Below are positions 21,927 through 43,517 of a DNA stretch of 64,000 bases, in pieces; positions within the stretch are counted from its first letter, which is position 1; each line of letters starts with the position of its first letter. A model generated the notes under the pieces. It saw nothing but the letters and a program-made list of their open reading frames with translations, searched no databases and had not been told where the DNA came from. Both the position numbers and the translations under genes were made by a program. The DNA is from Hyphococcus luteus (GTDB lineage Bacteria > Pseudomonadota > Alphaproteobacteria > Caulobacterales > Parvularculaceae). Where the stretch lies: assembly GCF_002943565.1 (NCBI RefSeq), contig NZ_PJCH01000001.1:310001-374000 (forward strand). The letters are read 5' to 3'.

Positions 21927-22019
21927 GCAGGCCGCGGCGCCAGCTTCAACAAAGCGGCGAACCGCGGTAAAATGGCCATCGGATAAGGCCTGAACTGCAC
22001 AGAAAAGGATGGCGGCGTT

Positions 22020-22394
22020 ATGGCTCCTTTGCGATCCCGGATGGATTTGAAAGCGGCGGGACTGGGGCTTGCTTTTGCGGCGATGATCTCCAGCGCTTTT
22101 GCAGCGAGCGAGACGAAAGCCGACGCGCAGGCGCCGAGTCTTACAGACGAACAGGTTGAAAGCGCCCGGGATCTGTTCCGGACCTGGTCCTGCGCCAGCT
22201 GTCACAAGCTGGCGGACGCGCAAGCCATGGGGCCCATCGGTCCGTCGCTCGATAACAACCCCAATCTCACTTATGAATATGTCGTCAGCCGCATCACCAA
22301 CGGTCAAGGCGCCATGCCGCCTTTCGGCGGCCAGTTGACCGAAAAGGAAATCGCCGACCTCTCCGCCTACATCATGCAGGTCGCGAAGAAATAA
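22020..22394 (+). CDS. Secreted class I cytochrome c
   Basis: A 124-residue periplasmic cytochrome. The N-terminus (GLGLAFAAMISSAFAA) is a signal peptide. Haem attachment is CASCH (Cys58, Cys61, His62) and the distal ligand is probably Met in GAMPPFGG, the usual layout of small c-type cytochromes with a C-terminal helix (KEIADLSAYIMQV). It passes electrons between a periplasmic dehydrogenase and an oxidase. It follows the MetF-like gene by 93 bp and converges on the VOC/PQQ-dehydrogenase operon (10-bp gap), so it is a plausible but unproven electron acceptor for that dehydrogenase. Confidence 0.9.
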   Translation: MAPLRSRMDLKAAGLGLAFAAMISSAFAASETKADAQAPSLTDEQVESARDLFRTWSCASCHKLADAQAMGPIGPSLDNNPNLTYEYVVSRITNGQGAMPPFGGQLTEKEIADLSAYIMQVAKK

Positions 22395-22404
22395 GCCTCA
22401 GCGC

Positions 22405-23310
22405 TCACTGATCCGGATTGCCGCCGACCTGCGCGAAGTAATTCGTCACGCCGTCCGGATCGTTGAGCCAGACAAAACGCAAGTCAAAGCCCGGCAGACT
22501 CCCGAGCGGCGTTTCCACCGTGACGTCGCGCGCTTTCGCCGTCGCATCGACGGCATCGACGTCGCTCACCACATATTGCACGCCGGCGCTGCCCGTATCG
22601 GCCGGCAAATCCTCGCCCGCCGACCAGACATTGATGGTCGTCGCGCCATTGCGATACGGGTATTTCGTCACGCCGAGCAGCTTGTCCTCAACCGGCGGCA
22701 ATTCATCGAGCCCGACAAAATCGCGGTAAAAGCCGCGGCTCGCCTCGAGATCAGACGCATTGACGCCGACTTCGACCTTTTCATAGGTCTCCCGCGGCGC
22801 GTCCGGTTCAACCACAAGCTTCAAGGTAAAGCCGCCCGGATCTTCGACCAGCGCGGCGCGCGCGCCGCCGCCGATATCCGTGAATTGCGGCGCGTCATAG
22901 CCATGCTCTTCAAAGCGGGCGGCAAGCGCGGCTTCGTCGGGGAAAAACAGCGTGAAAAGGCGAATGCCCGTGCCGTCCTTGACGCCGCCGAGATGATATT
23001 GCCGGCCTTCTTTCAGACCCGAAGCGAGCTTGATCTGGGCGCCGCCGATCTTGAACAGGATCATCTGCATGCCGCCGCCAAGATCGATCGGCTGCAGGGG
23101 GGCGAGATCCAGCACTTCGTCGTAAAATGCGACCATCTTTTCGCGATCTTCGGGAACGAAGCGCCGATAGACATTCATCGAATCCTGACTGATCACGGAG
23201 CGCACGGAACTCGTCGTTTCGGCTTTTTCCGCCGCAGGCTCTTCAGCGAAAGCCGACGGCGCCATCAGGGACAATCCGAGAAACAGGGCCGTCTTGAACC
23301 GCATCGGCAT
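22405..23310 (-). CDS. Secreted two-domain VOC (glyoxalase-like) protein
   Basis: 301 residues with an N-terminal signal peptide (MRFKTALFLGLSLMAPSAFA), then two vicinal-oxygen-chelate modules: one from about 45 to 165 (RRFVPEDREKMVAFYDEVLDL ... FTLKLVVEPD) and one from about 175 to 295 (VGVNASDLEASRGFYRDFVGL ... VTNYFAQVGG). VOC proteins usually act in the cytoplasm as isomerases, dioxygenases or resistance proteins; an exported one is less common. It lies 32 bp downstream of the PQQ-type dehydrogenase on the same strand, so it is likely co-expressed and may act on the dehydrogenase product or bind its substrate. Ordinary metal ligands are not clear in either module, so catalysis is uncertain. 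Confidence 0.8.
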   Translation of the reverse strand: MPMRFKTALFLGLSLMAPSAFAEEPAAEKAETTSSVRSVISQDSMNVYRRFVPEDREKMVAFYDEVLDLAPLQPIDLGGGMQMILFKIGGAQIKLASGLKEGRQYHLGGVKDGTGIRLFTLFFPDEAALAARFEEHGYDAPQFTDIGGGARAALVEDPGGFTLKLVVEPDAPRETYEKVEVGVNASDLEASRGFYRDFVGLDELPPVEDKLLGVTKYPYRNGATTINVWSAGEDLPADTGSAGVQYVVSDVDAVDATAKARDVTVETPLGSLPGFDLRFVWLNDPDGVTNYFAQVGGNPDQ

Positions 23311-23342
23311 GACATCTCTCCACTTTATTCCGGCCCGCTTTA

Positions 23343-25280
23343 TTATTCCGGCAAGGCGTAAACAACGAGGGATTCGTTGTTCAGCGGCTTGCCGTCGGGC
23401 CCGCGCGCGCCGACGCCGAAACTGGCCGCCATCACCGCCACATATTGCCGGCCGTCCTCGCCGAGATAGGTAATCGGCACGGCCTGCGCGTGATTATCGA
23501 GCGTCGCAGTCCACAACTCTTCGCCGGTCTTTGAATCGAAAGCGCGGAAACGATGGTCGCTCGTGGCGCCGATAAAGACGAGCCCGCCGGCCGTCACGAT
23601 CGGCCCGCCGAACGTGTTGTTCGCGCCCGTCGCCCATTTGTCTTCAGGCAGCCCTTCGCTGACGCCAAGCCGCGTCTCCCAGGCGATTTCGCCGGTATTG
23701 GCGTCGATGGCGAAGAGGCGTCCCCAGGGCGGCTTGATGCAGGGCAAGGTCACTTCCTCGCCGTCTTCATTCGTGAAACTGGCCCTGAAGCCCGTATAGG
23801 CGCCGGGCCCGGAGAGGCTGGCGCGGTCATAGGCTTGCGTAGAGCCCCCCGTGCCGCGGCCGTAATCGGCGCCTTCCTTGCGCTTTTCGATAAAGCCGAT
23901 GCTGCCGCCGGTGCTGGAATTGACATAGACATAACCGGTCGTCGGATCCGCTGCGCCGCCGCCCCAGTTGGAGCCGCCATTTTGCGGGATGTTGATCGAC
24001 GCCTTCAGCGGTTTGCCTTCCTCGTAAAGAAAAAAGGGCGTGAACGCGCCGGCGTTGAAGAACGTCCCGCCATAACTTTCGAGCAATGCATGACAGGCCG
24101 CGACATGCTCTTCATTCGTGTCTTCGGGCGTCACGATGTCGTCCGGCGTCCAGTCGCTGCGCGACAAGCGCGGCGGCTTTATCGGAAAGGGCTGCGTCGG
24201 AGAATACCATTCGCCGGGAACGTCGGCTGAGGCGACGGGCCGTTCTTCAACGCCGAAAACCGGTTCGCCGGTGTGACGGTTGAGAATGTACATGAAGGCG
24301 GCCTTGCCGGTTTCCGCAAGCGCCGGGATCGTCTTCCCGTCGACTTCGATATCGACCAGCACAGGCGGCGCCGGCAGATCCGAATCCCACAGATCGTGAT
24401 GGATCGTCTGGAAGTGCCATTTATACTCGCCGGTCAGCGCATCCACCGCCACGACGGAATTGCCGAACAGATTGTCGCCGGGCCGGTCGCCGCCATAATA
24501 GTTCGCAGACGGACCGCCGACCGACATATAGAGCGTGTCGGTTTCCTCATCGACGGTCATGTACCAGATCCAGACATTGGTGCCGGACCGCCCCTTCCAG
24601 CCGTCGTCAAGCCATGTTTCATGACCGATTTCGCCGGGGCGCGGCACGGTGTGAAACGTCCAGAGCTTTTCGCCGGTGCGCGCGTCGAAGGCGCGCGTGT
24701 CGCCCGGGTCGCCGATCTGCATTTCCGAGGTGTTGGCGCCGATGATGAGCACGTTTTTGTAAACGGTCGGCGGCGAATTGTAGGCCACGTCCAGTTCGAT
24801 GGCGCCGTCCTCGCCGAACCTCTCATCGGTCTCGCCGGTCTGCGGATTGAGCGCGACAATGGTCTTGCCGGTCGAATAAAAGAGGCGCGCGCCATAGTCG
24901 TCGTCGCCGGGCCAGTAAGAGACGCTCCGCCGCGCCAGGCCGCCGGAGACGGGGTGACGCCAGATTTCCGCGCCGACATCTGCTTCAAGCGCGACGACGG
25001 CGTCGCCGATAGGCAGATAGAGCACATTATCGATGACGATGGGCGTTGCGGAGCTGACAAGCATGCCGCCGCCTTCGGGCTTCACGCGGAAAGACCAGGC
25101 TTCAGTCAGCCTGGAAACGTTCTCCGTATTGATCTCATCGAGCGGGGAATACCGCGTGCCTTCAAGATTGCCGGCGTAACGCGGCCAGTCGCCTGTTTCG
25201 AGCGACGGCCCCCCGGAATTGGCGCAGGCGCCGAGCATCATCACTGCGGCGGCTGAAACCGATGCATTTCGAAATCCCAT
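23343..25280 (-). CDS. PQQ-type (quinoprotein) dehydrogenase, lipoprotein
   Basis: 645 residues. The N-terminus MGFRNASVSAAAVMMLGAC has a lipobox (LGAC), so the protein is probably anchored in the periplasm. The rest is an eight-bladed PQQ propeller with repeated W-motifs and typical segments: WPRYAGNLEGTRYSPLDEINTENV, TPIVIDNVLYLP, WHFQTIHHDLWDSDLPAPP, FMYILNRHTGEPVFGVEERPV, GGSNWGGGAADPTTGYVYVN and GGLVFIGATSDHRFRAFDSKTGEELW. These match the membrane glucose/quinate-dehydrogenase-like branch without its membrane anchor; there is no CxxCH haem motif. It would oxidise an alcohol, sugar or polyol. PQQ synthesis genes are not in the window. It forms an operon with the exported VOC protein and faces a cytochrome c gene. 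Confidence 0.88.
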   Translation of the reverse strand: MGFRNASVSAAAVMMLGACANSGGPSLETGDWPRYAGNLEGTRYSPLDEINTENVSRLTEAWSFRVKPEGGGMLVSSATPIVIDNVLYLPIGDAVVALEADVGAEIWRHPVSGGLARRSVSYWPGDDDYGARLFYSTGKTIVALNPQTGETDERFGEDGAIELDVAYNSPPTVYKNVLIIGANTSEMQIGDPGDTRAFDARTGEKLWTFHTVPRPGEIGHETWLDDGWKGRSGTNVWIWYMTVDEETDTLYMSVGGPSANYYGGDRPGDNLFGNSVVAVDALTGEYKWHFQTIHHDLWDSDLPAPPVLVDIEVDGKTIPALAETGKAAFMYILNRHTGEPVFGVEERPVASADVPGEWYSPTQPFPIKPPRLSRSDWTPDDIVTPEDTNEEHVAACHALLESYGGTFFNAGAFTPFFLYEEGKPLKASINIPQNGGSNWGGGAADPTTGYVYVNSSTGGSIGFIEKRKEGADYGRGTGGSTQAYDRASLSGPGAYTGFRASFTNEDGEEVTLPCIKPPWGRLFAIDANTGEIAWETRLGVSEGLPEDKWATGANNTFGGPIVTAGGLVFIGATSDHRFRAFDSKTGEELWTATLDNHAQAVPITYLGEDGRQYVAVMAASFGVGARGPDGKPLNNESLVVYALPE

Positions 25281-25523: not shown

Positions 25524-25781
25524 TCAGTTAATCTCCGGGAAGCACTGAAGCCCGATTTCTTTCATTTCGTCCGAAGCGTCGCTCTCCCAATCGGAGACAT
25601 TGTTGACATAGTCTTCCGCCTGTTCATCGGTCATGGCGTCGACAAAACAGGCGCACTGGCCTTCAGGATCGGGAGACCCAAGCGGCTCCACCACGGAAAC
25701 GCATTTGTCCATGGCCTCGCCGGCGAAGGCGCTTGTCGAAAACAAAAGCGCGCCGGCCACGATTGCGATTTTTCTCTTCAT
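25524..25781 (-). CDS. Small secreted cysteine-containing protein, function unknown
   Basis: 85 residues. MKRKIAIVAGALLFSTSAFA is a clear signal peptide, and GGGAGG stands 8 bases before this ATG, which decides the start over longer readings of the frame. The mature part (about 64 residues) is acidic and contains four cysteines: one in DKCVSV, two as C-x-C in GQCACF, and one in LQCFPE near the end. This could give two disulfides or a metal site. I do not recognise a family. Two IclR-type palindromes lie about 105-137 bp upstream, which ties it to the catabolic block to its right. It is probably periplasmic. Confidence 0.75.
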   Translation of the reverse strand: MKRKIAIVAGALLFSTSAFAGEAMDKCVSVVEPLGSPDPEGQCACFVDAMTDEQAEDYVNNVSDWESDASDEMKEIGLQCFPEIN

Positions 25782-25885: not shown

Positions 25886-25917
25886 TTCGATATTCGAATT
25901 TAATTTCGAATGTCGCA
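25886..25917. promoter_or_regulatory. Tandem TTCG-N5-CGAA palindromes, site A
   Basis: TTCGATATTCGAA (25886-25898) and TTCGAATGTCGCA (25905-25917, one mismatch in the right arm) are 19 bp apart start to start. The same arrangement recurs at 30432 and 32788. It lies upstream of the small secreted protein gene. Inferred to be an operator of the IclR regulator at 30530-31345. Confidence 0.6.
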
Positions 25918-26000
25918 ATCGTATGCCGCAGGACTGCGGCTGTCAAACGACGCCTGCGCGAAACGGGTTGTTTTACAGATTATCTGTACAGGAATTAATG

Positions 26001-26825
26001 TCAGCCAAGCGAATCGAGAAACGCTTCCAAAACGGCGTTATACTGACCGGGATTGCACAGATTGCACAGATGCCCGGCCTTTTCGATCGTCGCACGCCGC
26101 GCATTCGGCGCGCCCTCGGCGATGGCGTCGGCGACTAACCGGCGCGAGACCGTTTCCTGATCGCCCGTGACCACGAGCATCGGCGCGCCGATGCGGGTGA
26201 GCGCGTCCGGTCCGACGGCGAGATACGATGCAGGCGCCAGCAAGTCGCGGCCGTCATAGTCTTGCAGAATTTCATCGACAATCTCGCCCGCTTTTGCATT
26301 CGTCACATGCATGAGCGGATGCGCGCGCCACGCCTTACGCAATTCGGCCAGTTTGCCGGCCCGAGCGAGGTCGCGGTAAGCGTCGACAGGAATCGCCTCC
26401 GCTTCGTTCATCGCAGGCCTGAAGCCGTCGATCTGCGCCCCCTGCAACACAAGCGCCTTCACGCACTCCGGGCATCGAAGCGCAAAATCGAGCGCGACGC
26501 GGCCGGCCTGGGACATGCCGACGAGGATGCAAGCCTCGATCGAAAGCGCATCGAGAATGGCGGCGATGTCGCCGGCTTCCCTTTCGAGGCCCGCCGGCGC
26601 CGTGGAGCGGCCAAAACCGCGCCGGTCAAACGCAATCACCGGGTAGCGCGCAGACAGGGCCTCCATCTGCGGCGCCCACATGCGCCGGTCCAGCGTCCAG
26701 CCATGCAAAAACAGGACGGGCGGGCGGGCATGATCATAACCGCTCTCCCGCAGCTCGGCCTGCAGCGCGCCGCCGTCAACGGGAATTTCAAAAATTTGCG
26801 TCGGCGCGCCGGGCATCGGCTTCAC
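26001..26825 (-). CDS. Alpha/beta hydrolase
   Basis: 274 residues with the alpha/beta-hydrolase fold: oxyanion motif FLHGWTLDRRMW (about 40-50), FDRRGFGRS, nucleophile elbow VGMSQAGR (Ser105), acid VVTGDQE and catalytic histidine in AGHLCN. It hydrolyses an ester, lactone or C-C bond of a small molecule in the cytoplasm; relatives include 3-oxoadipate enol-lactonase and meta-cleavage hydrolases, and the substrate cannot be assigned. It lies 35 bp after the VOC gene and is the last gene of the probable receptor-WrbA-VOC-hydrolase transcript. The annotated GTG start and the ATG three codons later both lack a good ribosome binding site. Confidence 0.85.
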   Translation of the reverse strand: MKPMPGAPTQIFEIPVDGGALQAELRESGYDHARPPVLFLHGWTLDRRMWAPQMEALSARYPVIAFDRRGFGRSTAPAGLEREAGDIAAILDALSIEACILVGMSQAGRVALDFALRCPECVKALVLQGAQIDGFRPAMNEAEAIPVDAYRDLARAGKLAELRKAWRAHPLMHVTNAKAGEIVDEILQDYDGRDLLAPASYLAVGPDALTRIGAPMLVVTGDQETVSRRLVADAIAEGAPNARRATIEKAGHLCNLCNPGQYNAVLEAFLDSLG

Positions 26826-26860
26826 GCAAGCATAAGAGAGGAAAGACGCATGCGCGTTTA

Positions 26861-27394
26861 CTAGCGATAATCGTTGTTGTTTGTGTGATCGCCTTCAAGC
26901 CAGCGTTTCAGTTCCGAATGCGCCCTTGCCCGCCATTCGTCGGCGCGGGACACGGCGTCCGGAAGGTCGAGAACGAATTCCACAATCATGCCGTTCGGAT
27001 CGACGACATAGACCGAGCGGCAATAGCCGTGTTCCAGCACATAGGTGTCCGGCTCTTTATAGCCGGCTGCGGCGATGCGCTCTTCCATGGCTTGTTGCGT
27101 TTCCGCATCCACATCCAGCGCAATATGATGAAACGGAGAAGCCGGCATTTCAGGCCCGAATTCTTTTTGGTCTTCGGGATCGGCGAACTGGAAAAAAGCC
27201 AATGCGCTGCCGTCGGCGATGCCGAAAAAACAGTGGATATAGGTGCGTTCTTTCCCAAAAAGGATGTCCTTTTCACACCAGGTCGCGACGAGCGGAAATC
27301 CGAGAACATCTTCATAGAATTTCCGCGTCGCTTCCATATCGCTGGTGACATAAGCGGTGTGATGCAGCCGGTTCGGCAGGGATGCTTTCGCCAT
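26861..27394 (-). CDS. VOC family dioxygenase/isomerase-like protein
   Basis: 177 residues forming one VOC unit (two beta-alpha-beta-beta-beta modules). Probable metal ligands are His in RLHHTAYVTSD, His in FHHIALDVD and Glu in MIVEFVLD, the 2-His-1-carboxylate set of extradiol dioxygenase-like and glyoxalase-like enzymes. GAGGAG precedes the ATG. It sits in a run with WrbA (50-bp gap) and the hydrolase (35-bp gap). In that setting a ring- or C-C-cleaving step on an aromatic or enol intermediate is plausible, but a lactoylglutathione lyase-like role cannot be excluded. Confidence 0.82.
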   Translation of the reverse strand: MAKASLPNRLHHTAYVTSDMEATRKFYEDVLGFPLVATWCEKDILFGKERTYIHCFFGIADGSALAFFQFADPEDQKEFGPEMPASPFHHIALDVDAETQQAMEERIAAAGYKEPDTYVLEHGYCRSVYVVDPNGMIVEFVLDLPDAVSRADEWRARAHSELKRWLEGDHTNNNDYR

Positions 27395-27444
27395 TCTTTC
27401 GCGTCTCCTCTAATGCGATAATCGCCTGAATGCGCCGGCGCGCC

Positions 27445-28047
27445 TTACGAAGCCAGACGCGCCGCGATCTTGGCCACATGCCGGCCCTGAAATTTCGCGC
27501 CTTCAAGCTCATTGTCGCTCGGCATGCGCGAGCCGTCGGCGCCGGTGATCGTCGAGGCGCCGTAAGGCGTGCCGCCGCTCAGCTCGCTCATGATCGAAGC
27601 GCCTTCCCATTCATAGGGCAAGCCCACAATGACCATGCCATGATGAAGAAGCGTCGTGTGGAACGACGTGATCGTCGTTTCCTGGCCGCCATGCTGGCTG
27701 GCGGTCGACGTGAAGACGCTGCCGACCTTGCCCACAAGCGCGCGCGACATCCACAACGGCCCCGTCTGGTCGAGGAAATTGCGCATCTGCGCGGCCATGT
27801 TTCCGAAGCGCGTCGGCGTGCCGAAGATAATGGCGTCGTAGTTTTCGAGTTCAGCCGGGTCGGCGACAGGCGCCTCCTGGTCGAGCTTCAGGCCGGATTT
27901 GACGGCGACCTCCTCCGGCACGATTTCAGGCGTGCGCTTGACGTCGACCGTGACGCCGGAGACGGAGGACGCGCCCTCCGCCACGGCTTTCGCCAGCACC
28001 TCAACATGACCGTAACTCGAATAATAAAGCACCAGAACCTTGGTCAC
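27445..28047 (-). CDS. wrbA: NAD(P)H:quinone oxidoreductase WrbA
   Basis: 200 residues, the standard length of WrbA. Flavodoxin fold with [16 protein letters not shown] (FMN phosphate loop), [39 protein letters not shown] and GLPYEWEG, all hallmark WrbA segments. It reduces quinones by two electrons, avoiding semiquinone radicals. The start is taken as GTG (product MTKVLVLYY) because AAGGAG is 6 bases upstream of it; the TTG one codon earlier is too close. It lies between the receptor (39 bp upstream) and the VOC gene, so it may handle a quinone-like intermediate of the pathway. Confidence 0.93.
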
Positions 28048-28086
28048 CAATGTCTCCTTTGTTCGGCTGCGCGGGACACAGCCTCG

Positions 28087-30345
28087 TTAGAAACGCACGG
28101 TCAGGTCAACACCCCACCGCATGGGCTGCGCCTTGAACAGGAACCCGCCGGGAGAATATTCCGTATTATATTCCTCGTCGAACAGGTTTTTCGACCAGAA
28201 CATCAAGGACCATGTATCGTTCATGATTCCGGCGCGAAGATTGACGAGATCGACCGGATCGCGCGCCACTGGCGTGGCGTCCAGCGCAAGCTCGGGCGCG
28301 CTGAAGGGGATCGTGAAGATCGTGTCGCCCAGGCGGTTGTAATCGACGCGCACCAGCCCTTCGATGTCGCCCCAGAGCGGCGTCCGGTACTCGGCGCCGA
28401 TATTGAGCGTATATTCCGAGACCAGCGGCGCCTGGGCGCCGATGGCGACAGGGTCCGGGAATTCAGTGATTTCGCTGTCGGTGTAGCCGAAACCGGCGTT
28501 GAAAGCGAAGTTGTCCGTCACTTGCGCGTTCAGCTCGACATCGAAGCCCTTATACTCGACCTCATCGATATTGCCGAGATTTTGCGTCGAGTTGGCGGCG
28601 ATGAAGACGAAAAAGTAAGTGCCCTCGGCTTTGGTGAAATAGCCGCTCGCATTGAGATTGACCCGGCCGTCCATGAAGGCGGATTTAAAACCCGCTTCAT
28701 AAGTGTTCGCCGTTTCCTGGTCGAAGAGATCGCCGACATTGAAAAAGCCGCTTGCATCCGCCAGCCCGCCGACGCCCGTCTGGTTGAAACCGCCGCTGCG
28801 GAAGCCGCGGCTGTAGCTGGCGAACAAATTCAGGTTGTCCGTCGCCGCATAGCTGAGGATCGCCTGCGGCTGCCAGTCGTCCCATGAGTTTTCGCGCACC
28901 AGGCCGGAGCTGCATTCGGGGCCCGGCGTGCAGGGCAGGAACGCCGTCGGCGTGAGCGTCGTGTTCTCGCGCTTGTCATGGTCGTAACGCAGATTGAGGG
29001 ACAGCTCGAGATCGTCCGTGATGTCGTAAGACGTATTGAGATAAACCGCCCATGCGAACTGGTCCTGGGAATCCGCCAGGAAGGTCAGCTGCGGATGAGC
29101 CGGATCGGTGCTCGGTTCGCGGTAAACCGGGATCACGCCCATGCCGGTGTCGATCTGGTTGCCTGTCGAGATGTATCGGTCGGTCGCATAAATCTGTCCG
29201 CCGACGATATAACGAAAACGGTTTTCCGAGGGCGACGTGAACCGCAGCTCCTGCGTGAACGTGTCAACGTCCAGAAACTGGGTCTGGCTGTAATTGAACC
29301 CGACCCGGTTGATCGGAAACGGACCGAAGGGATCGAACGGATAGCCGTCGCCGGTCAGCAATTCTTCAACGCTGTTGTAGCCGGTGATCGAGGTAAACGC
29401 GCCATAGTCGGTCTCATAAGTCAGCTTGAGCGCGGCGTCGTAAATGTCGCGCTCATTCTTGCCTGAGTTGTTAAGATCGATCGGGCGGTCCGTGTAATTG
29501 GGGTTGTTGAAATTCGGATTGGAGAAATCCGGGATCACATAGTAAAGCGCGCGGGTATCGAGAAGGTCGGCCGACAGCCGCAGATCGGCGGTGAAATTAT
29601 CCGTCGGCTCATAAAGGAACGAAAGCCGCGCGTTTAAATCCTCTACCGGATCGACGTTCTTTTTAGCGCTCGCGTCGGTCGTGTTGACATTGGTGAGATG
29701 GCCTTCGGTGTCGAAATAGGAAATCGCGCCGCGCATGGACAAATCATCGCCGAGCGGAACGGTCACCGCGCCCTGAAGTTTGTAGCCCGGGCCCGATTCA
29801 TAACCGCCGGTGAACTTCCCCTCGAATTCATCGCCCGGTTTTTTCGTCGTGATGACAATCGCGCCGCCAATGGCGTTGCGCCCGTAAAGCGCGCCCTGCG
29901 GGCCCTTCAGGACTTCGATCTGCTCGATGTCGATCAGCGCCTGATTGAACTGGGCAGGCTGCGTCATCGGCACGCCGTCGACGACGATCGCCGCGGACGG
30001 TTCGCTGTTGCGCGCCTGTGAGATGCCGCGAATGACGAGAAAGCTCGTGCCGGCGTTTTGCGTTTCGACGAAGGTGACGTTCGGCACCTGTTCGATAAAA
30101 TCCGCAGGCCGCTCAATGCCGCGATTCTGGATCGCCTGTTCGTTCAGCACAGTCACCTGCGCCGGCACATCCTGAATGGATTCGTCGCGCCGCCGCGCCG
30201 TAACGACGATCCGGTCGCCCGACGCCGCCGCGCCATCGCCGGTCTCGTCCGCTCCCGCCTGCGCCATCGCCAGTGAAGGCGTTAAAAAAGCCGCTATAGC
30301 CGTCGCCGACAGCAACGCGCGCGCATGTCTTGATGCAATGCCCAT
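28087..30345 (-). CDS. TonB-dependent outer membrane receptor
   Basis: 752 residues. Signal peptide ending at SLAMAQA, TonB box-like RIVVTARRRDES, plug domain with SFLVIRGISQARNSEP and IEQIEVLKGPQGALYGRNAIGGAIVITTK, then a 22-strand barrel ending in GVDLTVRF with a terminal phenylalanine. The plug type (RRRDESIQDVP) is that of receptors abundant in sphingomonads and relatives, often linked to uptake of aromatics or plant compounds. GGGAGG precedes the ATG. It heads the run receptor, wrbA, VOC, hydrolase. Its promoter region carries the tandem palindromes of site B overlapping the -35 element, so it is the best candidate for control by the neighbouring IclR regulator. Confidence 0.93.
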   Translation of the reverse strand: MGIASRHARALLSATAIAAFLTPSLAMAQAGADETGDGAAASGDRIVVTARRRDESIQDVPAQVTVLNEQAIQNRGIERPADFIEQVPNVTFVETQNAGTSFLVIRGISQARNSEPSAAIVVDGVPMTQPAQFNQALIDIEQIEVLKGPQGALYGRNAIGGAIVITTKKPGDEFEGKFTGGYESGPGYKLQGAVTVPLGDDLSMRGAISYFDTEGHLTNVNTTDASAKKNVDPVEDLNARLSFLYEPTDNFTADLRLSADLLDTRALYYVIPDFSNPNFNNPNYTDRPIDLNNSGKNERDIYDAALKLTYETDYGAFTSITGYNSVEELLTGDGYPFDPFGPFPINRVGFNYSQTQFLDVDTFTQELRFTSPSENRFRYIVGGQIYATDRYISTGNQIDTGMGVIPVYREPSTDPAHPQLTFLADSQDQFAWAVYLNTSYDITDDLELSLNLRYDHDKRENTTLTPTAFLPCTPGPECSSGLVRENSWDDWQPQAILSYAATDNLNLFASYSRGFRSGGFNQTGVGGLADASGFFNVGDLFDQETANTYEAGFKSAFMDGRVNLNASGYFTKAEGTYFFVFIAANSTQNLGNIDEVEYKGFDVELNAQVTDNFAFNAGFGYTDSEITEFPDPVAIGAQAPLVSEYTLNIGAEYRTPLWGDIEGLVRVDYNRLGDTIFTIPFSAPELALDATPVARDPVDLVNLRAGIMNDTWSLMFWSKNLFDEEYNTEYSPGGFLFKAQPMRWGVDLTVRF

Positions 30346-30420
30346 CCCTATTTCCTCCCTAAAGCATCGTTCTTCGCCGGGCGGTTTTCCGCCTCTTCAG
30401 GCCAACGATTCTTGCCGCTT

Positions 30421-30449
30421 CATCGTAAATCTTCGTAGATCGAAGTCAA
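30421..30449 (-). promoter_or_regulatory. Candidate promoter of the receptor-wrbA-VOC-hydrolase operon
   Basis: On the minus strand TTGACT (complement of 30444-30449) is followed after 17 bp by ACGATG, or after 16 bp by TACGAT. It is about 75 bp before the receptor ATG. The -35 hexamer sits in the gap between the two site B palindromes, so a bound regulator would cover it. Confidence 0.5.
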
Positions 30450-30463
30450 GTTCGATATTCGAA
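30432..30463. promoter_or_regulatory. Tandem TTCG-N5-CGAA palindromes, site B
   Basis: TTCGTAGATCGAA (30432-30444) and TTCGATATTCGAA (30451-30463), both with perfect TTCG/CGAA arms, 19 bp apart start to start. The second is identical to the first palindrome of site A. It lies between the IclR gene and the receptor it probably controls. Confidence 0.7.
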
Positions 30464-30529
30464 ATTTGAAAACTGGCGCAATGGCGGAATGCGGGCTTCC
30501 CGTCCGCCGCCGCCTGATTGAGCCGCCGA

Positions 30530-31345
30530 TTAGTCGTCGCTGCTAAGAGAGTGGGAAATATAAGGATGTCTGGCGAGCGCCGTCTGGATCTCCGAGGCCG
30601 CGCGCCGGAGCACCGGCACATGGGCGCTGATCAATTCGTCGACCGACACCCGAGTCGTTGAAGTGGAGCAGTTAACGGCGGCCACGATCCGCCGCTCGCG
30701 GTCGAAGACCGGCGTGGAGACGGAGACGATGCCGTAATCGAGCTCGTCGAGGGCGGAAGCGAAGCCGTCCTCGCGCACCTGTGACAGGACTGCGCGCAAT
30801 TCGTCAGGCGAGGTGATGGTGCGCTCAGTGTACCGGGTCAGCGGCGCCGTTTCGAAATACGCCTCAAGGGCCTCGTCGCTCTGGAAAGCCAACAGCACTT
30901 TGCCGAGCGACGTCGCATGCGCCGGGAATCTTGTTCCCACATTGGCGCTGAGGCGGATGGGGCGCAGGGTCGACACATGCGCCACGTAAAGAACGTCGCG
31001 CCCGGAAAGGACGGCCATGGACGAGCTGTCGCCGGTTTCGTCGCGCACGGCCTGCAGGAACGGCAATGCGACGGTTTCGAGATTCATGGAGGAAATATAG
31101 GACCAGCCGAAGGCCAGCACTTCCGGACGCAACAGGAAGCGGCGGCCGTGTTTGGCCACATAGCCGAGCTTGACGAGCGTGTTGAGGCAGCGGCGCGCGA
31201 CGGCGGGGCTCAGATTGGTGACGGCGGCGACTTCGCTCAGCTGCATCTCCGGCCGGCTCTGGTCGAACGCCCGCAACACCGAAAGCCCGCGTTCCAGCGT
31301 CGAGAGATATTCCGGCTCCTTGTCGGAGTTTTTGGCCCTGGCCAT
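30530..31345 (-). CDS. IclR family transcriptional regulator (PcaR/PobR-like)
   Basis: 271 residues. Residues 10-70 form the winged helix-turn-helix (STLERGLSVLRAFD, LSEVAAVTNLSPAVARRCLNTLVKLGYV), followed by a GAF-like IclR effector domain (about 85-255) with GTRFPAHATSLGKVLLA, ELDYGIVSVSTPVFD and AAVNCSTSTTRV. The STLERGLSVL and LSPAVARR segments resemble the protocatechuate/hydroxybenzoate regulators PcaR and PobR. The start MARAKNSDK follows a weak GAGG; seven more codons upstream are open. It is flanked on the left by the receptor operon and on the right by CaiB, and tandem palindromes occur on both sides, so local control of both is likely. The effector may be an aromatic acid. Confidence 0.9.
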   Translation of the reverse strand: MARAKNSDKEPEYLSTLERGLSVLRAFDQSRPEMQLSEVAAVTNLSPAVARRCLNTLVKLGYVAKHGRRFLLRPEVLAFGWSYISSMNLETVALPFLQAVRDETGDSSSMAVLSGRDVLYVAHVSTLRPIRLSANVGTRFPAHATSLGKVLLAFQSDEALEAYFETAPLTRYTERTITSPDELRAVLSQVREDGFASALDELDYGIVSVSTPVFDRERRIVAAVNCSTSTTRVSVDELISAHVPVLRRAASEIQTALARHPYISHSLSSDD

Positions 31346-31502
31346 GTGCGGCGCCTCAAAGATCAAGCGCCGTGACTTATCGTGCTCCGGCGGCGAAATC
31401 CAGCCTGAGAGGCATCGGTTCCGCAGCTCTCGGGGCGCCGGCGCATCCTCTTTCCTGACTGCGCCGCAAGCTTTGAGTGCAAGACTGTATGCCCCGGATC
31501 GG

Positions 31503-32651
31503 CTATTCCGCCGCGCCTTTGGTTTTTGCGCGGCCTAGAATTTCACCATTATGCTCGCCGAGGGTCGGCGGCGCTTTCACCTCGCTCGGGCGCGCGCCGT
31601 CGAAGCTGAGGGGCGAGCGAACGGTGCGGAATTCGCCCATTTCCGGATGCGTATCTTTCAGCTCCAGCCCGAGATGGCGGGCCTGCGCGCTTTCAAGAAC
31701 TTCCGGCGGATTGCGCAGGGGCGAATGCGGCACCTCCCCTTCCGCCAGACGCGCGCACCATTCATCAAGCGAGCGCGTCTTGAAGATCGGCGCCAGAAAA
31801 TCGTTCACCCCTTCATAATTCTCGATGCGCGCATTGCGGTCGGCGAATTCGGGACGGTCGAGCATATCCGGCTGGTCCACGGCCTTCGCCAGATTCTCCC
31901 AGAATTTCGGCGGCGAGGACATGTGAAGCGCAAGCCAGCGCCCGTCGCCGCACTCGAAGACATAGGACTGCGAAACATGGGGGCGGCTATAAGGCCCCAT
32001 GATCTCACCGGCGGAAAGATAATGCGTAAAGTCGTCGAGATTGAAATGGCACATCGCCTCGAACATCGAGGTTTCCACAAGGCGGCCCTTGCCGGTGCGC
32101 GCGCGCTCATTGAGCGCGGCGAGCGTTCCGAACGCGGCGTAAAAGCCGGTGACCGCATCGGCGATCGCCGGGCCGACGACGCGCGGATGCTCCGGATTGA
32201 CGAGCAGCCTTAAAAAACCGCTGGCGGCCTGGGCGACGCTGTCGAAAGCGGGACGCTCCTTGTCCGGACCATCGGGGCCGAAGCCCGAGATCGAGCAATA
32301 AACGAGCTGCGGATTGATCTCTTTCAGGCGCTCATAATCGACATTGAGACGCCCTGCGACGCCGGGACGGAAATTCTGGATGAAGACGTCCGCCTCGGCG
32401 ACGAGCCGGTCCAGCGCCGCCAGATCCTCGGCGTCCTTGGTGTTCAGCGTAATGCTGCGCTTGTTGCGGTTGTAGGTCTGGAAATGCGGGCTGTAGAGCT
32501 CGCCCTTGAACGCCCGGAACGGATCGCCGGAGCCCGGCTGCTCGATCTTGATCACATCGGCGCCGAGATCGGCGAGCAACATGCCCGCCGCCGGGCCGGT
32601 GATGAAGGTGCCCATCTCGAGCACGGTGATGTCGCTGAGCACTTTCGCCAT
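31503..32651 (-). CDS. CaiB/BaiF family (class III) CoA transferase
   Basis: 382 residues of the class III CoA transferase fold: VLEMGTFITGPAAGMLLADLGADVIKIEQP at the N-terminus, NRNKRSITLNTKD, VFIQNFRPGVAGRL and SISGFGPDGP, all family markers. It moves CoA between carboxylic acids in the cytoplasm. At the position where the catalytic aspartate normally stands (GQ-VDVS in formyl-CoA transferase) this protein has LVETSMFEA, i.e. glutamate. That occurs in other family members but makes substrate prediction harder. AGGAG precedes the ATG. It is divergent from the citryl-CoA lyase-like gene, with tandem IclR-type palindromes and a promoter between them. It may activate an acid that the lyase then cleaves. 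Confidence 0.88.
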   Translation of the reverse strand: MAKVLSDITVLEMGTFITGPAAGMLLADLGADVIKIEQPGSGDPFRAFKGELYSPHFQTYNRNKRSITLNTKDAEDLAALDRLVAEADVFIQNFRPGVAGRLNVDYERLKEINPQLVYCSISGFGPDGPDKERPAFDSVAQAASGFLRLLVNPEHPRVVGPAIADAVTGFYAAFGTLAALNERARTGKGRLVETSMFEAMCHFNLDDFTHYLSAGEIMGPYSRPHVSQSYVFECGDGRWLALHMSSPPKFWENLAKAVDQPDMLDRPEFADRNARIENYEGVNDFLAPIFKTRSLDEWCARLAEGEVPHSPLRNPPEVLESAQARHLGLELKDTHPEMGEFRTVRSPLSFDGARPSEVKAPPTLGEHNGEILGRAKTKGAAE

Positions 32652-32776
32652 AAAGCAGCTCCTAAAACGTTGGAGGCGGCGCTTCGCCCCAGCTTTCCCG
32701 CAACGGGTCTTCGCAACAGGGCTTTGCGCCTATTATCAAGGCCTGACCTTCAAAATGCGGCGCTATCCTTGACATC

Positions 32777-32805
32777 GCTATAGAAAATTCGAATAACGAA
32801 GACAA
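32777..32805 (-). promoter_or_regulatory. Candidate promoter of the CaiB-type gene
   Basis: On the minus strand TTGTCT (complement of 32800-32805) and TATAGC (complement of 32777-32782) are 17 bp apart. The geometry relative to the tandem palindromes is the same as at the receptor promoter: the -35 falls in the 6-bp gap. It implies a leader of about 120 nt. Confidence 0.55.
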
Positions 32806-32819
32806 GTTCGGAATGCGAA
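32788..32819. promoter_or_regulatory. Tandem TTCG-N5-CGAA palindromes, site C
   Basis: TTCGAATAACGAA (32788-32800) and TTCGGAATGCGAA (32807-32819), both with perfect arms, 19 bp apart start to start. It lies between the divergent CaiB and citryl-CoA lyase-like genes, 137-168 bp and 104-135 bp from their starts, so it could control either or both. Confidence 0.7.
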
Positions 32820-32922
32820 AATTTTGCGTTGATTGGCCCAATCACGCGTGGCAGGCCGGCGCAAATATGCGATTTCACCTGAGGGGCGGCCCCGCCCGGC
32901 TCGGATGAAAGGATCAAGACTT

Positions 32923-33702
32923 ATGCGCATCGGAAAACAGGATAAGCCCTACAGCGCGATTTGCACTTCGACGGCGGAAAACATTAGCGTCCGCGGACGC
33001 GACCTCTGCGAAGACATTATCGGCAAGCTCGATTTCACGAGTTATTTCTGGCTCCTCGTTACCGGCGATGAGCCAACCGCCACGCAGAAAAAATTCGCCG
33101 ACGCCGTCCTCGCCGCGATCGCCGAGCATGGCCTCGTGCCGAGCGTCGTCGCGTCGCGCATGACTTACGCCGCTGCGCCGGAAGCCTTTCAAGGCGCCGT
33201 CGCCGCCGGCCTTCTCGGCTGCGGCTCGGTCGTGCTCGGCAGCGCTGAAATCGCCGGCCGCTTTCTCGCCGATATTGTCGCCGACGGCGACGATGTCGAC
33301 GCCGCCGCCGAACGCGCGGTCAAACGCCTGCGCGAAACGAAAACGCCGGTGCCGGGCTTCGGCCACCCGCAGCATTCGGGCGGCGACCCGCGCGCCCATC
33401 GCCTGCTCGGCATGGCGCGCGATGACAACGCCGCCGGCGCGCATATCCGCGCGCTCGAAGCCGTCGAGAAAGTGATCCCCAATGTCATCGGCCGCACGCT
33501 GCCGATCAATGTCAACGGCGCCATTCCGGCGGTGATGCTGGATGTCGGCTTTCCGCTCGGCGCGCTCAAAGGCATTTCACTGCTCGCGCGCACGGCGAGC
33601 CTGATCGGCCATCTTCAGGAAGAAACGGAACGGCCCATCGGCTTTATCCTGTCGGGCAAAGCCGCCGAATCCATCACCTATGACGGGCCGGACATGAAAT
33701 AA
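32923..33702 (+). CDS. Citryl-CoA lyase-like protein (citrate synthase superfamily)
   Basis: 259 residues, about two thirds of a full citrate synthase and the size of the stand-alone citryl-CoA lyase-like branch. Family marks are SVRGRDLCEDIIGKLDFTSYFWLLVTGDEPT, the catalytic region PGFGHPQHSGGDPRAHRLLGMA, and NVNGAIPAVMLDVGFP. The predicted reaction is cleavage (or formation) of a citryl-CoA-like thioester into an acyl-CoA and a 2-oxo acid. The start MRIGKQDKP is the likely one, with AAAGGA somewhat far upstream; an in-frame ATG six codons earlier is possible. The MetE-core gene follows 19 bp later, so the two are co-transcribed up to the terminator at 34745. Confidence 0.83.
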   Translation: MRIGKQDKPYSAICTSTAENISVRGRDLCEDIIGKLDFTSYFWLLVTGDEPTATQKKFADAVLAAIAEHGLVPSVVASRMTYAAAPEAFQGAVAAGLLGCGSVVLGSAEIAGRFLADIVADGDDVDAAAERAVKRLRETKTPVPGFGHPQHSGGDPRAHRLLGMARDDNAAGAHIRALEAVEKVIPNVIGRTLPINVNGAIPAVMLDVGFPLGALKGISLLARTASLIGHLQEETERPIGFILSGKAAESITYDGPDMK

Positions 33703-33721: not shown

Positions 33722-34744
33722 ATGATTTTACTGCCAACCTCGCTTGTCGGATCCTACCCGCAGCCGGACTGGCTGATCGACAGAGAAAAACTGGCCGGGC
33801 GCTTTCCCCCACGCGTGCGCGTCAATGAATTATGGCGCGTCGCGCCGGAATGGCTCGAACAGGCGCAGGACGATGCGACGATCCTCGCCATTCGCGACCA
33901 GGAGCGCGCCGGCCTCGATATCATCACCGACGGCGAAATGCGCCGGGAAAGCTATTCCAACCGCTTCGCCACCGCGCTTGACGGCGTGGATCTCGACAAT
34001 CACGGCGAAGCCCTCGACCGCAGCGGACATCCCAATCCGGTGCCGCGCATCGTCGGCAAGATCAAGCGCCGCCATTCCGTTCAGGTGCGCGACGTGAAAT
34101 TCCTGCGCGCCAATACCGACAAGGCGATCAAAATCACCGTGCCCGGTCCGTTCACCATGTCGCAGCAGGCGCAGAACGACTTTTATGAGTCGGAAGCTGA
34201 AATGGCGCTCGACTACGCCGCCGCCGTCAATGAAGAGATCAAGGATATGTTCGACGCCGGCGCCGATTATGTGCAAATCGACGAGCCTTACATGCAGGCG
34301 CGCCCTGAAAAAGCCCGCGAATACGGCGTCGATGCGCTGAACGCCGCGCTAGACGGCGCGAAAGGCAAGACCGCCGTTCATATCTGCTTCGGCTACGCCG
34401 CGATCATTCACGAAAGGCCGGAAGGGTATTCCTTTCTGCCGGAGCTTTCCGATTGCTGCGTTCAACAAGTCTCCGTCGAGACGGCGCAGTCCAATCTCGA
34501 CACCTCCGTGCTCGAAAACTTGCGCGGCAAAACAGTCATTCTCGGCGTCATCGATCTTTCAACCAATGACGTCGAAACGCCGGAAACGGTCGCGGAGAGA
34601 ATTCGCCGCGCCCTCCCCCATGTGGACGCCGACAAGATCATCGTCGCGCCCGATTGCGGCATGAAATACCTGCCGCGCGACGTGGCGTTCGGAAAAATGA
34701 AAGCGATGGCCGAAGGCGCCGCGCTTGTGAGAGCCGAACTGTAA
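33722..34744 (+). CDS. MetE-core protein 1 (cobalamin-independent methionine synthase C-terminal domain family)
   Basis: 340 residues, only the catalytic C-terminal barrel of MetE (full MetE has about 750). Visible: LVGSYPQPDWL near the start, ITDGEMRRESY, TVPGPFTMSQQ, YVQIDEPYMQ, and zinc ligands in HICFGYA (His-x-Cys), a Glu in QVSVETA and Cys in APDCGMKYLPR. Stand-alone MetE-core proteins include methyltransferases that use donors other than methyl-THF-polyglutamate, and thiol transferases. GGGAG precedes the ATG. It follows the citryl-CoA lyase-like gene and has a paralogue at 36297. It probably activates a thiol with zinc and accepts a methyl or alkyl group; donor and thiol are unknown. 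Confidence 0.85.
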   Translation: MILLPTSLVGSYPQPDWLIDREKLAGRFPPRVRVNELWRVAPEWLEQAQDDATILAIRDQERAGLDIITDGEMRRESYSNRFATALDGVDLDNHGEALDRSGHPNPVPRIVGKIKRRHSVQVRDVKFLRANTDKAIKITVPGPFTMSQQAQNDFYESEAEMALDYAAAVNEEIKDMFDAGADYVQIDEPYMQARPEKAREYGVDALNAALDGAKGKTAVHICFGYAAIIHERPEGYSFLPELSDCCVQQVSVETAQSNLDTSVLENLRGKTVILGVIDLSTNDVETPETVAERIRRALPHVDADKIIVAPDCGMKYLPRDVAFGKMKAMAEGAALVRAEL

Positions 34745-34859: not shown

Positions 34860-36263
34860 ATGCAGCCAGTCACGGAAAACGCTCAGACGTTGCTGGAAAG
34901 CATCTATGCTTTCTGCCGGCAACACTCCATGGCCGAGTCGACGTTCGGCCGGCGCGCCGTCAATGACGGAAAATTCGTGTCGCGCTTGAAAGACGGCTCG
35001 CGCTTGCGGCCGGAAACCTGGGACCGCGTCGTCAAGTTCATCTCAAGTCATGGCGGCGCGGCGCCGTCCGCGCCCGATCCCGGCCTTCTTCACATCCTGC
35101 CAAGCGAGAGCCTCGCCGCCGCCGCAAGCGACACATCCTCTGAGAAAAATTTCAGGTTCTTCGACAATCGTCAGAAATATCTGATGTTCGTGAACACCTG
35201 CAGCGAAAAGGACATTGTCGCCGAGCGGGCCGGCATGGAGCTCTCCCACATTCATCCCGCGCCGCCGGCGATCCGGCTCTTCGACGGCGGCATCGGCGAC
35301 GGCACCGTGCTCGCAAAACTCCTGCGTGAAATGCACGGGCGTTTCCCGACCATGCCTTTTTATGTGTCCGGCAAAGAGATCAGCCTCGAAGACATTCGTT
35401 TAACGCTCGGCAAAATGGCCGACCGTTTGTTCGAACATCCGGCGACCGTGCTCGTTTTCACGAACATGTTCTATTCCGAGGCGCCCTGGCTGACGCCGAA
35501 GAAGCAGGAAGCCAAAGACGCCCTGGTCTGGAAGGAAGTCGCCCTGAAAGGCGGCACGGCCCATGATTTCGACCGCCAGATTTCCGAACTCGACAGTTTC
35601 CTCACCGAAAACTGGCAGGCGCGCCACAGCCCCAAGACCGGCAACCCGATTTACGACCATCCGGCCGTCCTTGTCATCTATCGCGAGGATTACAAGTTCC
35701 TTTTAAACGACGTCATCCCGAAACAGGGCGAAGCGAAAGCCGACTACGATCTCGTTCTCGCCTCGCAGCCCTATCGGTTGCGCGTGCCCGCCGCCTTCAA
35801 GGCGAAAAACGTCATCGCGCCCCTCGCCCGGGCCCTGCGCCCGAGCGGAAGGCTGCTCGGCATTCATTCCTACGGCCGCGATCCCGGCATGGAGATCATC
35901 AACAGGATCTGGCCGGACGACAATCCGTTCGAAACGAGCCGTCACGACATTCTGCGCGCGCTGAAAGACGCGCTCGGCGACGAGGCGGAGGAGTTCGATT
36001 TCAATGCGTTCTCCGACGACCGCTCGATCTTTCAATACAAGATGCACACCCTGCCGACGGAAGTCGATTCGAGCATCGGCACCTCAACCCTGTTCGCGGC
36101 GTGGAACGACGCCGTCTATGTCGCGCAGATCGAAGACGACCGGCTTGAAGACGGACCGGAAGGCGCGGACTATCTTCAGGCGACGCGAGAAGTTTTGAAA
36201 AAACATGGCGGCCTGTGGTTCAATGACGAATCCTATGTCGTCTCGAGAACGCGCGGCGCGTAA
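34860..36263 (+). CDS. HTH-like N-terminal domain fused to SAM-methyltransferase-like domain, function unknown
   Basis: 467 residues. Residues about 25-64 (STFGRRAVNDGKFVSRL, then KDGSRLRPETWDRVVKFI) look like the compact helix-turn-helix found in many small alphaproteobacterial putative DNA-binding proteins. After a linker, residues 138-151 (IRLFDGGIGDGTVL) match methyltransferase motif I, and DYDLVLASQPYRL plus IAPLARALRPSGRLLGIHSYG fit motifs IV-V, so residues 95-467 resemble a class I SAM methyltransferase. I know of no characterised protein with this order. AAAGGAA precedes the ATG, and it begins a new transcript after the terminator at 34745. The second MetE-core gene follows 33 bp later. 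It may methylate a small molecule or sense SAM and regulate; both are guesses. Confidence 0.8.
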   Translation: MQPVTENAQTLLESIYAFCRQHSMAESTFGRRAVNDGKFVSRLKDGSRLRPETWDRVVKFISSHGGAAPSAPDPGLLHILPSESLAAAASDTSSEKNFRFFDNRQKYLMFVNTCSEKDIVAERAGMELSHIHPAPPAIRLFDGGIGDGTVLAKLLREMHGRFPTMPFYVSGKEISLEDIRLTLGKMADRLFEHPATVLVFTNMFYSEAPWLTPKKQEAKDALVWKEVALKGGTAHDFDRQISELDSFLTENWQARHSPKTGNPIYDHPAVLVIYREDYKFLLNDVIPKQGEAKADYDLVLASQPYRLRVPAAFKAKNVIAPLARALRPSGRLLGIHSYGRDPGMEIINRIWPDDNPFETSRHDILRALKDALGDEAEEFDFNAFSDDRSIFQYKMHTLPTEVDSSIGTSTLFAAWNDAVYVAQIEDDRLEDGPEGADYLQATREVLKKHGGLWFNDESYVVSRTRGA

Positions 36264-36296: not shown

Positions 36297-37439
36297 ATGG
36301 CTTCAGCGGGACGATTTCTGACAACTCATGTGGGCAGCCTGCCGCGCCCGGAAAAGCTGATCGAAATCATGTTCGCGCGCGAAGACGGCCTGCCCCTCGA
36401 TCCGGACGCGGTCGAAAAGGAAATCGAAGCCGCCGTCCGCGATATTGTCGCCAAACAGGCCGAAGCCGGCATCGACGTCGTCAATGACGGCGAAATGTCG
36501 AAGCCGAGCTATGCGACCTATATCAAGGACCGCCTCGCGGGCTTCGGCGGCGCCGGCAATTCCTATGTCTTTCAGGACATCGAGGATTTTCCTTCGCTGA
36601 AAAAACGCATTTTCGACGATCCAGGCCGCAAGCACCGCAAGACCCCGGCCTGCAACGGGCCGATCAGCGTCAAGGACATGGAAGCGCCGGCGAAAGACGC
36701 GGCGCGCCTCAACGCCGCCGTCGCCGAGCATGAGGGCGTAAAGCCGTTCATGAGCGCCGCCTCCCCCGGCGTGACGACCCTCTTCTTCGGCAATGAATAT
36801 TACGACAGCCACGAGGATTATCTCTTCGCCGTCGCCGAGGGGCTGCGCCACGAATACGAGACCATCGCGGCGGAGGGCATTACGCTGCAGATCGACTGCC
36901 CCGACCTCGCCATGGGCCGGCACACGCAATACGCCCATCTCGATCTCAACGGCTTTCGCGACCGCATGGCGCTGCATATCGAAGCGCTCAACAAGGCCGT
37001 CGCCAACATCCCCGCCGAGCAACTGCGCATGCATATGTGCTGGGGCAATTATCCGGGCCCGCATCATTGCGACGTTCCCTTCAAGGACATCATCGACCTC
37101 GTCTGGCAGGCAAAGCCGCACGCCATTCTCTTCGAAGCCGCGAACCCGCGCCACGCCCATGAATATGAGCTTTTCGAAAATGTGAAACTGCCCGAAGGCA
37201 AGGTGCTGATCCCCGGCGTCATCGAATGCCAGTCGAACTATATCGAGCACCCCGATCTCGTCGCGCAGCGCATTGCGCGTTACGCCAATCTCGTCGGGCG
37301 CGAGAATGTCATGGCCGGCGTCGATTGCGGTTTTTCCATTCACGCCGGCTCCGGCGGCGTCGACCCCAGCGTCGCCTTCGCCAAGCTCGCCGCGCTCGCC
37401 GAAGGCGCGAAAATCGCCTCGAAACAGTTCTGGCCGTAA
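36297..37439 (+). CDS. MetE-core protein 2 (cobalamin-independent methionine synthase C-terminal domain family)
   Basis: 380 residues, again the catalytic barrel alone. THVGSLPRPEKL at the start, VVNDGEMSKPSYATYI, CNGPISVKD, LQIDCPDLAMG and zinc-site elements HMCWGNYPGPHHCD and GVDCGFSIH near the C-terminus are diagnostic. It is only distantly similar to MetE-core 1, so the two probably have different substrates rather than being a recent duplication. GCGAGGAG stands 7 bases before the ATG. It is co-directional with the HTH-methyltransferase gene and is the last gene of the block before the convergent N-ATPase operon. Role: transfer of a methyl or related group to or from a zinc-bound thiol. 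Confidence 0.86.
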   Translation: MASAGRFLTTHVGSLPRPEKLIEIMFAREDGLPLDPDAVEKEIEAAVRDIVAKQAEAGIDVVNDGEMSKPSYATYIKDRLAGFGGAGNSYVFQDIEDFPSLKKRIFDDPGRKHRKTPACNGPISVKDMEAPAKDAARLNAAVAEHEGVKPFMSAASPGVTTLFFGNEYYDSHEDYLFAVAEGLRHEYETIAAEGITLQIDCPDLAMGRHTQYAHLDLNGFRDRMALHIEALNKAVANIPAEQLRMHMCWGNYPGPHHCDVPFKDIIDLVWQAKPHAILFEAANPRHAHEYELFENVKLPEGKVLIPGVIECQSNYIEHPDLVAQRIARYANLVGRENVMAGVDCGFSIHAGSGGVDPSVAFAKLAALAEGAKIASKQFWP

Positions 37440-40701: not shown

Positions 40702-40705
40702 GGCA

Positions 40706-43516: not shown

Positions 43517-43517
<1 letters not shown>
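43218..43517 (-). CDS. atpQ: N-ATPase accessory membrane protein AtpQ (AtpI-like)
   Basis: 99 residues: a basic, hydrophilic N-terminus (about 1-33, with KAARKIKARREGR) and two membrane helices (FGFGMFGLIGWAVAVPTLIGVALGLWLD; WTLALIVAGVCLGCWNAWRWV). This is the AtpI/AtpQ pattern; AtpI relatives help assemble the c ring and may carry Mg2+. In N-ATPase operons the gene sits after atpC, as here. It overlaps atpC by one base (TAATG) and the antiporter by 8 bp. Confidence 0.87.

Follow-up and report, generated by a model that had tools for sequence, protein, structure and literature searches.

Background

Tandem operators have already been described for regulators of the IclR family, and the case treated here fits that type. 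According to Suvorova and Gelfand (2021, PMC8222616; this and the other papers cited below are quoted from parts of their text), tandem palindromes placed 18-22 nucleotides (nt) apart, mainly 19-21, were assigned to 94 IclR orthologous groups and linked to tetramers. The present analysis concerns a window of 64,000 nucleotides of Hyphococcus luteus (contig NZ_PJCH01000001.1, positions 310,001 to 374,000 of the forward strand; the window is this whole stretch, and positions are counted from its first letter), in which three modules, each made of two TTCG-N5-CGAA palindromes, lie near a gene for an IclR-family regulator. In all three the palindromes are 19 bp apart, within the 18-22 nt range, and the half-sites fit the IclR group 1 consensus GKTYCRYW3-4RYGRAMC, by our reading nearest to its WTT-11-AAW variant; a -35 box inside the gap, as found at this locus, has no mention in the available parts of PMC8222616. 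With a probability of roughly 0.78, the IclR protein is read here as an autoregulated, ligand-relieved tetrameric repressor of a catabolic gene cluster, acting via the three modules.

The regulators that this protein most resembles are PcaR, PcaU and PobR. The published PcaR operator (GTTCGATAATCGCAC) resembles the modules here in type, whereas PcaU is described with a palindrome and a direct repeat, as opposed to two full palindromes at this locus. The PcaR/PcaU/PobR model TIGR02431 is the best NCBIfam match, and the five residues that contact succinate in PcaR are identical here; the genes are different, since a receptor, a coenzyme A (CoA)-transferase, lyase-like and MetE-like genes are found and not pca genes. 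TtgV, another IclR-family protein with a DNA-bound structure (PDB 2xrn/2xro), is a weak sequence match (E 3.1e-14), and its operator differs from the modules here. It binds as a tetramer, as cited in PMC8222616, and its targets are resistance-nodulation-division (RND) efflux transporters. PheR is another IclR repressor and has a different motif; TonB-receptor transcripts rose when it was deleted (PMC13273656). A literature search, judged from listings and covering neither supplementary tables nor most subscription papers, returned nothing on the gene cluster itself.

Tandem palindromes in the window and in the genome

Six palindromes had been claimed in an earlier note on this stretch, at 25886/25905, 30432/30451 and 32788/32807; all are present with the 19-bp offsets, and the TTCG and CGAA arms are perfect in five, the sixth (25905) carrying one mismatch (CGCA). 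On the minus strand the 6-bp gaps read CTTGAC (30445-30450), CTTGTC (32801-32806) and ATTAAA (25899-25904). The note has all three sites surrounding the IclR gene; more exactly, one lies just past its 3' end, one beyond CaiB on its 5' side and one about 4.6 kb off.

The window has no excess of single palindromes at up to one mismatch (49 observed, 71.2 expected), and the option of considering every TTCG-N5-CGAA as a site was rejected because singles are rarer than expected. What stands out is the pair with its fixed spacing. Pairs were therefore searched in the whole genome (4,922,247 bases in 16 contigs), using the reversed pattern as background control here and in the other pair scans. At a threshold of one mismatch, the pair was found at only three places, those of the window, and not scattered over unrelated loci, so that a check proposed in the note itself did not refute it. 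The next-best pairs were two places with 2 mismatches, and the 36 places obtained with up to 3 mismatches are mostly noise, since the reversed control gives 23. As in an autoregulated local regulon, sites thus stand at the promoters of the regulator's own presumed operon and of its neighbours, and are absent elsewhere in the genome at up to one mismatch.

Co-occurrence of the module and the regulator

The order of the host was represented by 299 genomes, its own among them, sampled evenly from a larger group. The IclR protein was found at 71-100% identity (E <= 1e-122) in 12 of them, and another 12 contained solely homologues of 34-41% identity (E <= 1e-40). A perfect pair was present in exactly the 12 genomes with the close orthologue and in none of the 287 others; two sets of 12 picked at random among 299 would coincide with a probability of about 1e-21, a figure that overstates the evidence owing to the kinship of the genomes. 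Eight of the 287 (G271, G147, G007, G270, G235, G239, G279 and G069) have one pair each with 1 mismatch and none perfect, and these look like background because the reversed pattern yields, at the same threshold, 16 matches in 15 genomes. At the 13 loci of the 34-41% homologues (12 order genomes), no pair with up to 2 mismatches was detected. In a class sample of 337 genomes, the perfect pair occurred in 4, all among the 6 with an IclR match at E <= 1e-60, and the reversed pattern in one (G475); three class genomes whose IclR protein is 58, 66 and 100% identical have two perfect pairs apiece.

Operator A, which has one mismatch and no -35 box in its gap, was considered as a possible false positive. 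The four relatives viewed first at this place had been picked for having the module, a biased choice, and the order was therefore searched with the small secreted protein encoded next to operator A. Ten of the 299 genomes encode it (E <= 1e-6). In the 160 bases before its gene, the pair is present in 6/6 genomes with the IclR orthologue (mismatches 1, 1, 1, 1, 1 and, in G228, 2), and in the 4 genomes lacking the orthologue (G005, G134, G189, G243) the best matches have 5, 6, 7 and 8 mismatches; the false-positive option was rejected by this comparison (6/6 vs 0/4). All six genomes (own and five relatives) have TTGACA 23 bases ahead of the pair. In three relatives a divergent gene for the second MetE-core protein (MetE2) faces the small-protein gene across the pair. 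Since the small-protein module is conserved with the regulator, one signal would serve three promoters, in two arrangements. Locality is unproven in G144 and G228, where the small-protein gene and its module are on a contig other than that of IclR.

Conservation across related loci

Loci were also collected from named genomes by homology to IclR, keeping the best 80 of 100 relatives (1.36 Mb in total), which belong to Alphaproteobacteria, Gammaproteobacteria and one Vicinamibacteria. At up to one mismatch they contain 145 pairs (135 perfect), against 0 for the reversed pattern, and the module is present at this threshold in 79 of the 80. When perfect palindromes within 60 bp of each other were paired, the spacing was 19 bp in 135 cases out of 135. 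Sorted by nearest recognised genes, the 145 pairs fall between IclR and the receptor (60), in the divergent lyase/CaiB region (59), between lyase and receptor (9) and elsewhere (17), and in four loci with altered gene order (L038, L041, L044, L052) they are still at gene starts. Homologous genes are thus preceded by the pair in Hyphomonadaceae, Parvularculaceae, Sphingomonadales, Pseudokordiimonas, Emcibacter and Gammaproteobacteria, which answers positively the comparison of orthologous clusters that the note had called for. Three palindromes in a row, in 19-bp steps and with one mismatch in the outermost, follow the IclR gene in L050 (4411-4461) and L140 (2374-2424); that of L050 stands before the receptor gene.

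Gene content of the 80 loci was explored using tblastn at a threshold of 60 bits, which gave the receptor in 74, the lyase in 70, the VOC protein in 67, CaiB in 66, the hydrolase in 61 and WrbA in 59, some stretches being cut short and paralogues being included. For the MetE-core proteins the threshold was set to 150 bits, since at 60 bits MetE2 cross-matches MetE1; MetE1 was found in 25 loci and MetE2 in 50. The conserved modules support the claim that ties the small protein, the receptor-WrbA-VOC-hydrolase run, CaiB and possibly the lyase and MetE-core genes to one signal.

Promoter geometry and proposed mechanism

A reasonable promoter had been claimed at two of the gaps. At 30432 this holds (TTGACT-N16-TACGAT, 9/12 consensus matches, the TTGACT overlapping the first base of the second palindrome), but the site at 32788 does not appear on the promoter-scan list: the scan demands T as the last base of the second hexamer, so that the CaiB candidate, TTGTCT-N17-TATAGC, read directly, is unlisted. 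In the 57 perfect copies at the receptor place, TTGA is kept at gap positions 15-18 in all and is followed by C in 56; in the 57 at the CaiB place, TTG is invariant and TA is found in 56 where a -10 box with a 17-nt spacer would begin. Operators B and C are predicted to straddle the -35 box of the receptor and CaiB-IclR promoters.

The mechanism that we propose is as follows. The IclR protein would bind each module as two dimers forming a tetramer, one dimer per palindrome, and with palindrome centres 19 bp apart the dimers would occupy almost the same side of the DNA. Three promoters would be controlled: that of the receptor-WrbA-VOC-hydrolase run, that of CaiB-IclR (hence of the regulator itself) with the divergent lyase-MetE genes, and that of the small secreted protein. 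The tetramer would cover the -35 box at two of them and, at the third, the bases that directly follow the -10, keeping RNA polymerase out at all three; an intermediate of the pathway, a carboxylate and probably a dicarboxylate-like one, would release it. Repression is considered most likely because exclusion of polymerase is the simplest effect common to the three places. The sites, their uniqueness and conservation, their co-occurrence with the regulator and their placement in the promoters are observed; binding, tetramer, repression, ligand and substrate are what we infer from sequence, repression being the least certain step.

The IclR-family regulator

The protein scores well above the gathering thresholds of both Pfam domains of the family, PF09339 (HTH_IclR; 53.6 vs 22) and PF01614 (IclR_C; 152.8 vs 24). 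Its best NCBIfam model, TIGR02431, reaches 266.6 bits, under the cut-off of 284.75, and the 10 homologues scanned out of the 80 are likewise below it (251.1-276.7). The targets of that subfamily, the pca and pob genes of the beta-ketoadipate route, are not those of this locus, where only the hydrolase resembles one of them (PcaD), below cut-off. Filing the regulator as PcaR/PcaU/PobR was rejected on both counts, the score and the target genes. In the recognition stretch, L45, A48, R51, R52, L54 and T56 are identical in 80/80 homologues.

The solved structure of Pseudomonas putida PcaR (PDB 8eju) aligns over residues 9-252 of the query. Five PcaR residues bond succinate (PMC12455658), and their equivalents here are Y120, T145, S208, N225 and S227, kept in 80, 79, 80, 80 and 80 of the 80 homologues. 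Since these contacts are kept, the alignment suggests that the regulator has a carboxylate ligand.

Alternative explanations

The assignment of the sites to this IclR protein, as the note had proposed, is supported by their correlation with the regulator in the order sample, by the module-less loci of the 34-41% homologues, by the invariant recognition core and by the small-protein comparison. The same evidence bears on the idea that the palindromes are read by one or several other regulators and that IclR is merely a neighbour. This idea may draw on the TTCG-N5-CGAA-like boxes common to group 1 IclR motifs (PMC8222616) and on the further IclR homologues present in the same order, but it would have to accommodate co-occurrence in 12/12 genomes against 0/287, the absence of modules at 13/13 loci of the more distant homologues and a small-protein module that follows the regulator (6/6 vs 0/4) even off its contig in G144 and G228, and we hold it to be very improbable. 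Frequent single palindromes in the window, though fewer than expected, are what speaks for a chance, mobile or structural repeat in place of operators; such an origin has next to no chance and was rejected on account of uniqueness in the genome at up to one mismatch, co-occurrence across the order, promoter placement and the spacing of 19 bp in every one of the 135 perfect pairs.

The sign of regulation is where a rival carries more weight. The same regulator, at the same sites, might be a ligand-dependent activator in the manner of PcaU and PobR, or an activator at operators B and C and a repressor at A, which is unlikely though a serious contender. PcaR homologues activate hybrid promoters when the box is placed upstream of the -35 or within the -35/-10 spacer, and repress them when it overlaps the -10 or lies beyond it (PMC12455658); operators B and C occupy the activating positions, so that activation there is possible. 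PcaU and PobR are termed activators in the title of a reference cited in the sources, and TIGR02431, the nearest NCBIfam subfamily, includes the two of them. However, operator A lies past the -10 in 6/6 genomes, the repressing position of PMC12455658, and each of the three promoters retains a -35-like hexamer, for which a promoter wholly dependent on an activator would have less need.

Repression by the IclR tetramer, our preferred reading, has several further observations against it. The 80 loci are not independent, many being from Erythrobacter/Porphyrobacter or Sandarakinorhabdus and nine (L035-L043) being, judged by length, the same contigs as order genomes already counted. The module is missing at up to one mismatch in L113 (IclR 52% identity), and no perfect module was found in G338 and G527 (42-43%). 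The -10 of the small-protein promoter is weak in 3/6 genomes, and the -10 register is loose at the other two places: the mean TATAAT-like score at the CaiB place is 3.51/6 with a 15-nt spacer vs 3.25 with 17, and the scores of the receptor place also peak at 15 nt (2.58). The conserved ligand contacts may do no more than anchor a carboxylate in general. Lastly, the motif also occurs outside this orthologous group: in G305, whose IclR protein is 43% identical, a perfect module (L149 1891-1922, contig C253) adjoins an unrelated gene, apparently for a solute-binding receptor, away from the contig of IclR. The operator may there be shared by a sister regulon. G305 has a second pair, with 1 mismatch, which ends 17 bases before its IclR match (L142).

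Gene content and possible pathway

Features of the locus are listed in Table 1. From gene order and strand, CaiB and IclR are inferred to share one transcript. The name WrbA is presumptive, being taken from the label of the earlier reader.

Table 1. Operators, promoter and genes of the putative IclR regulon (window positions)
Feature	Position	Strand	Evidence and remarks
Small protein, 85 residues, four cysteines	25524..25781	-	signal-peptide-like N-terminus (judged by eye); no Pfam family
Tandem operator A (TTCGATATTCGAA-TTTAAT-TTCGAATGTCGCA)	25886..25917	-	directly after -10 of small-protein promoter; pattern and genome scans
Predicted sigma-70 promoter of small secreted protein, TTGACA-N17-TACGAT	25918..25946	-	10/12 consensus matches; promoter scan
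Alpha/beta hydrolase	26001..26825	-	nearest NCBIfam model PcaD, 103.1 bits vs cut-off 255.85
VOC (glyoxalase-fold) protein	26861..27394	-	profile matches
Flavodoxin/flavin mononucleotide (FMN)-reductase-type protein, WrbA-like	27445..28050	-	
TonB-dependent outer-membrane receptor	28087..30345	-	first gene of receptor-WrbA-VOC-hydrolase run
Tandem operator B	30432..30463	-	gap holds predicted -35 (TTGACT, 30449-30444) of receptor promoter
IclR-family regulator, nearest to PcaR/PcaU/PobR	30530..31345	-	NCBIfam, Pfam and structure-sequence matches
CaiB-type (family III) CoA-transferase	31503..32651	-	presumed first gene of CaiB-IclR operon
Tandem operator C	32788..32819	-	divergent CaiB/lyase region; gap holds -35-like TTGTCT, TATAGC 17 nt downstream towards CaiB
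Citryl-CoA-lyase-like protein	32914..33702	+	start codon uncertain; frame open from 32833
MetE-core (Meth_synt_2) protein 1	33722..34744	+	profile matches
467-residue protein	34860..36263	+	no Pfam match
MetE-core protein 2	36297..37439	+	profile matches; divergent from small protein across third operator in three relatives

The receptor, the VOC protein, the flavodoxin-type reductase and the hydrolase together suggest that an organic compound is taken up and degraded. In citryl-CoA lyase, the aspartate of the NVDGAI motif has a catalytic role. The lyase-like protein aligns to citryl-CoA lyase 6hxp with N in place of this aspartate, and in the 69 homologues covering the position N is found in 59, S in 10 and aspartate in none, while the histidine of GFGH is kept in 70/70; its chemistry may thus differ from that of citryl-CoA lyase. 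The metal ligands of MetE are the H and C of an H-x-C motif and a later C. These three residues are kept in 25, 25 and 24 covered homologues of MetE1 and in 50, 50 and 50 of MetE2. Homologues of the 467-residue protein adjoin MetE genes or genes resembling that of methylenetetrahydrofolate reductase (MTHFR) in L037, L043 and L147. A gammaproteobacterial locus without CaiB match, L075, the one in which this replacement was looked at, contains in its receptor-VOC-MetE run a CoA-ligase-type protein (15438-16778; AMP-binding_C_2 above cut-off, AMP-binding just below), and the presence of this ligase in place of CaiB suggests that CoA activation of an acid is a step of the pathway.

These elements can be assembled into a tentative picture, which we hold to be less likely than not: the regulon would mark a catabolic pathway that has not been described before and is common among alpha- and gammaproteobacteria, many of which come from water. 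The TonB receptor would import a methylated, perhaps quinone- or phenol-derived compound, the MetE-core enzymes would pass its methyl group or groups to a thiol, the CoA-transferase (a CoA ligase in gammaproteobacteria) would activate the acid so formed, and the aspartate-less citryl-CoA-lyase-like enzyme would act on the thioester, the whole being gated by the dicarboxylate-sensing IclR tetramer through an operator enclosing the -35 box.

Genes for MTHFR-like, VOC-like and pyrroloquinoline quinone (PQQ)-dehydrogenase-like proteins lie beside the regulon (20853-25280) and have no module of their own. Next to the cluster on the other side (37461-45315, minus strand) are ATP-synthase subunit genes, which from their translations we take to be gamma-, alpha-, b-, a- and beta-like, with a presumed cation antiporter-like gene among them.

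Significance

A regulator and its operators could be assigned to each other here from sequence alone, and the 32-bp signature has the specificity needed to locate the regulon in unannotated genomes by a pattern search. The grouping of the receptor, CoA-transferase, lyase-like and MetE-like genes as one unit makes a candidate catabolic pathway testable in culturable Sphingomonadales.

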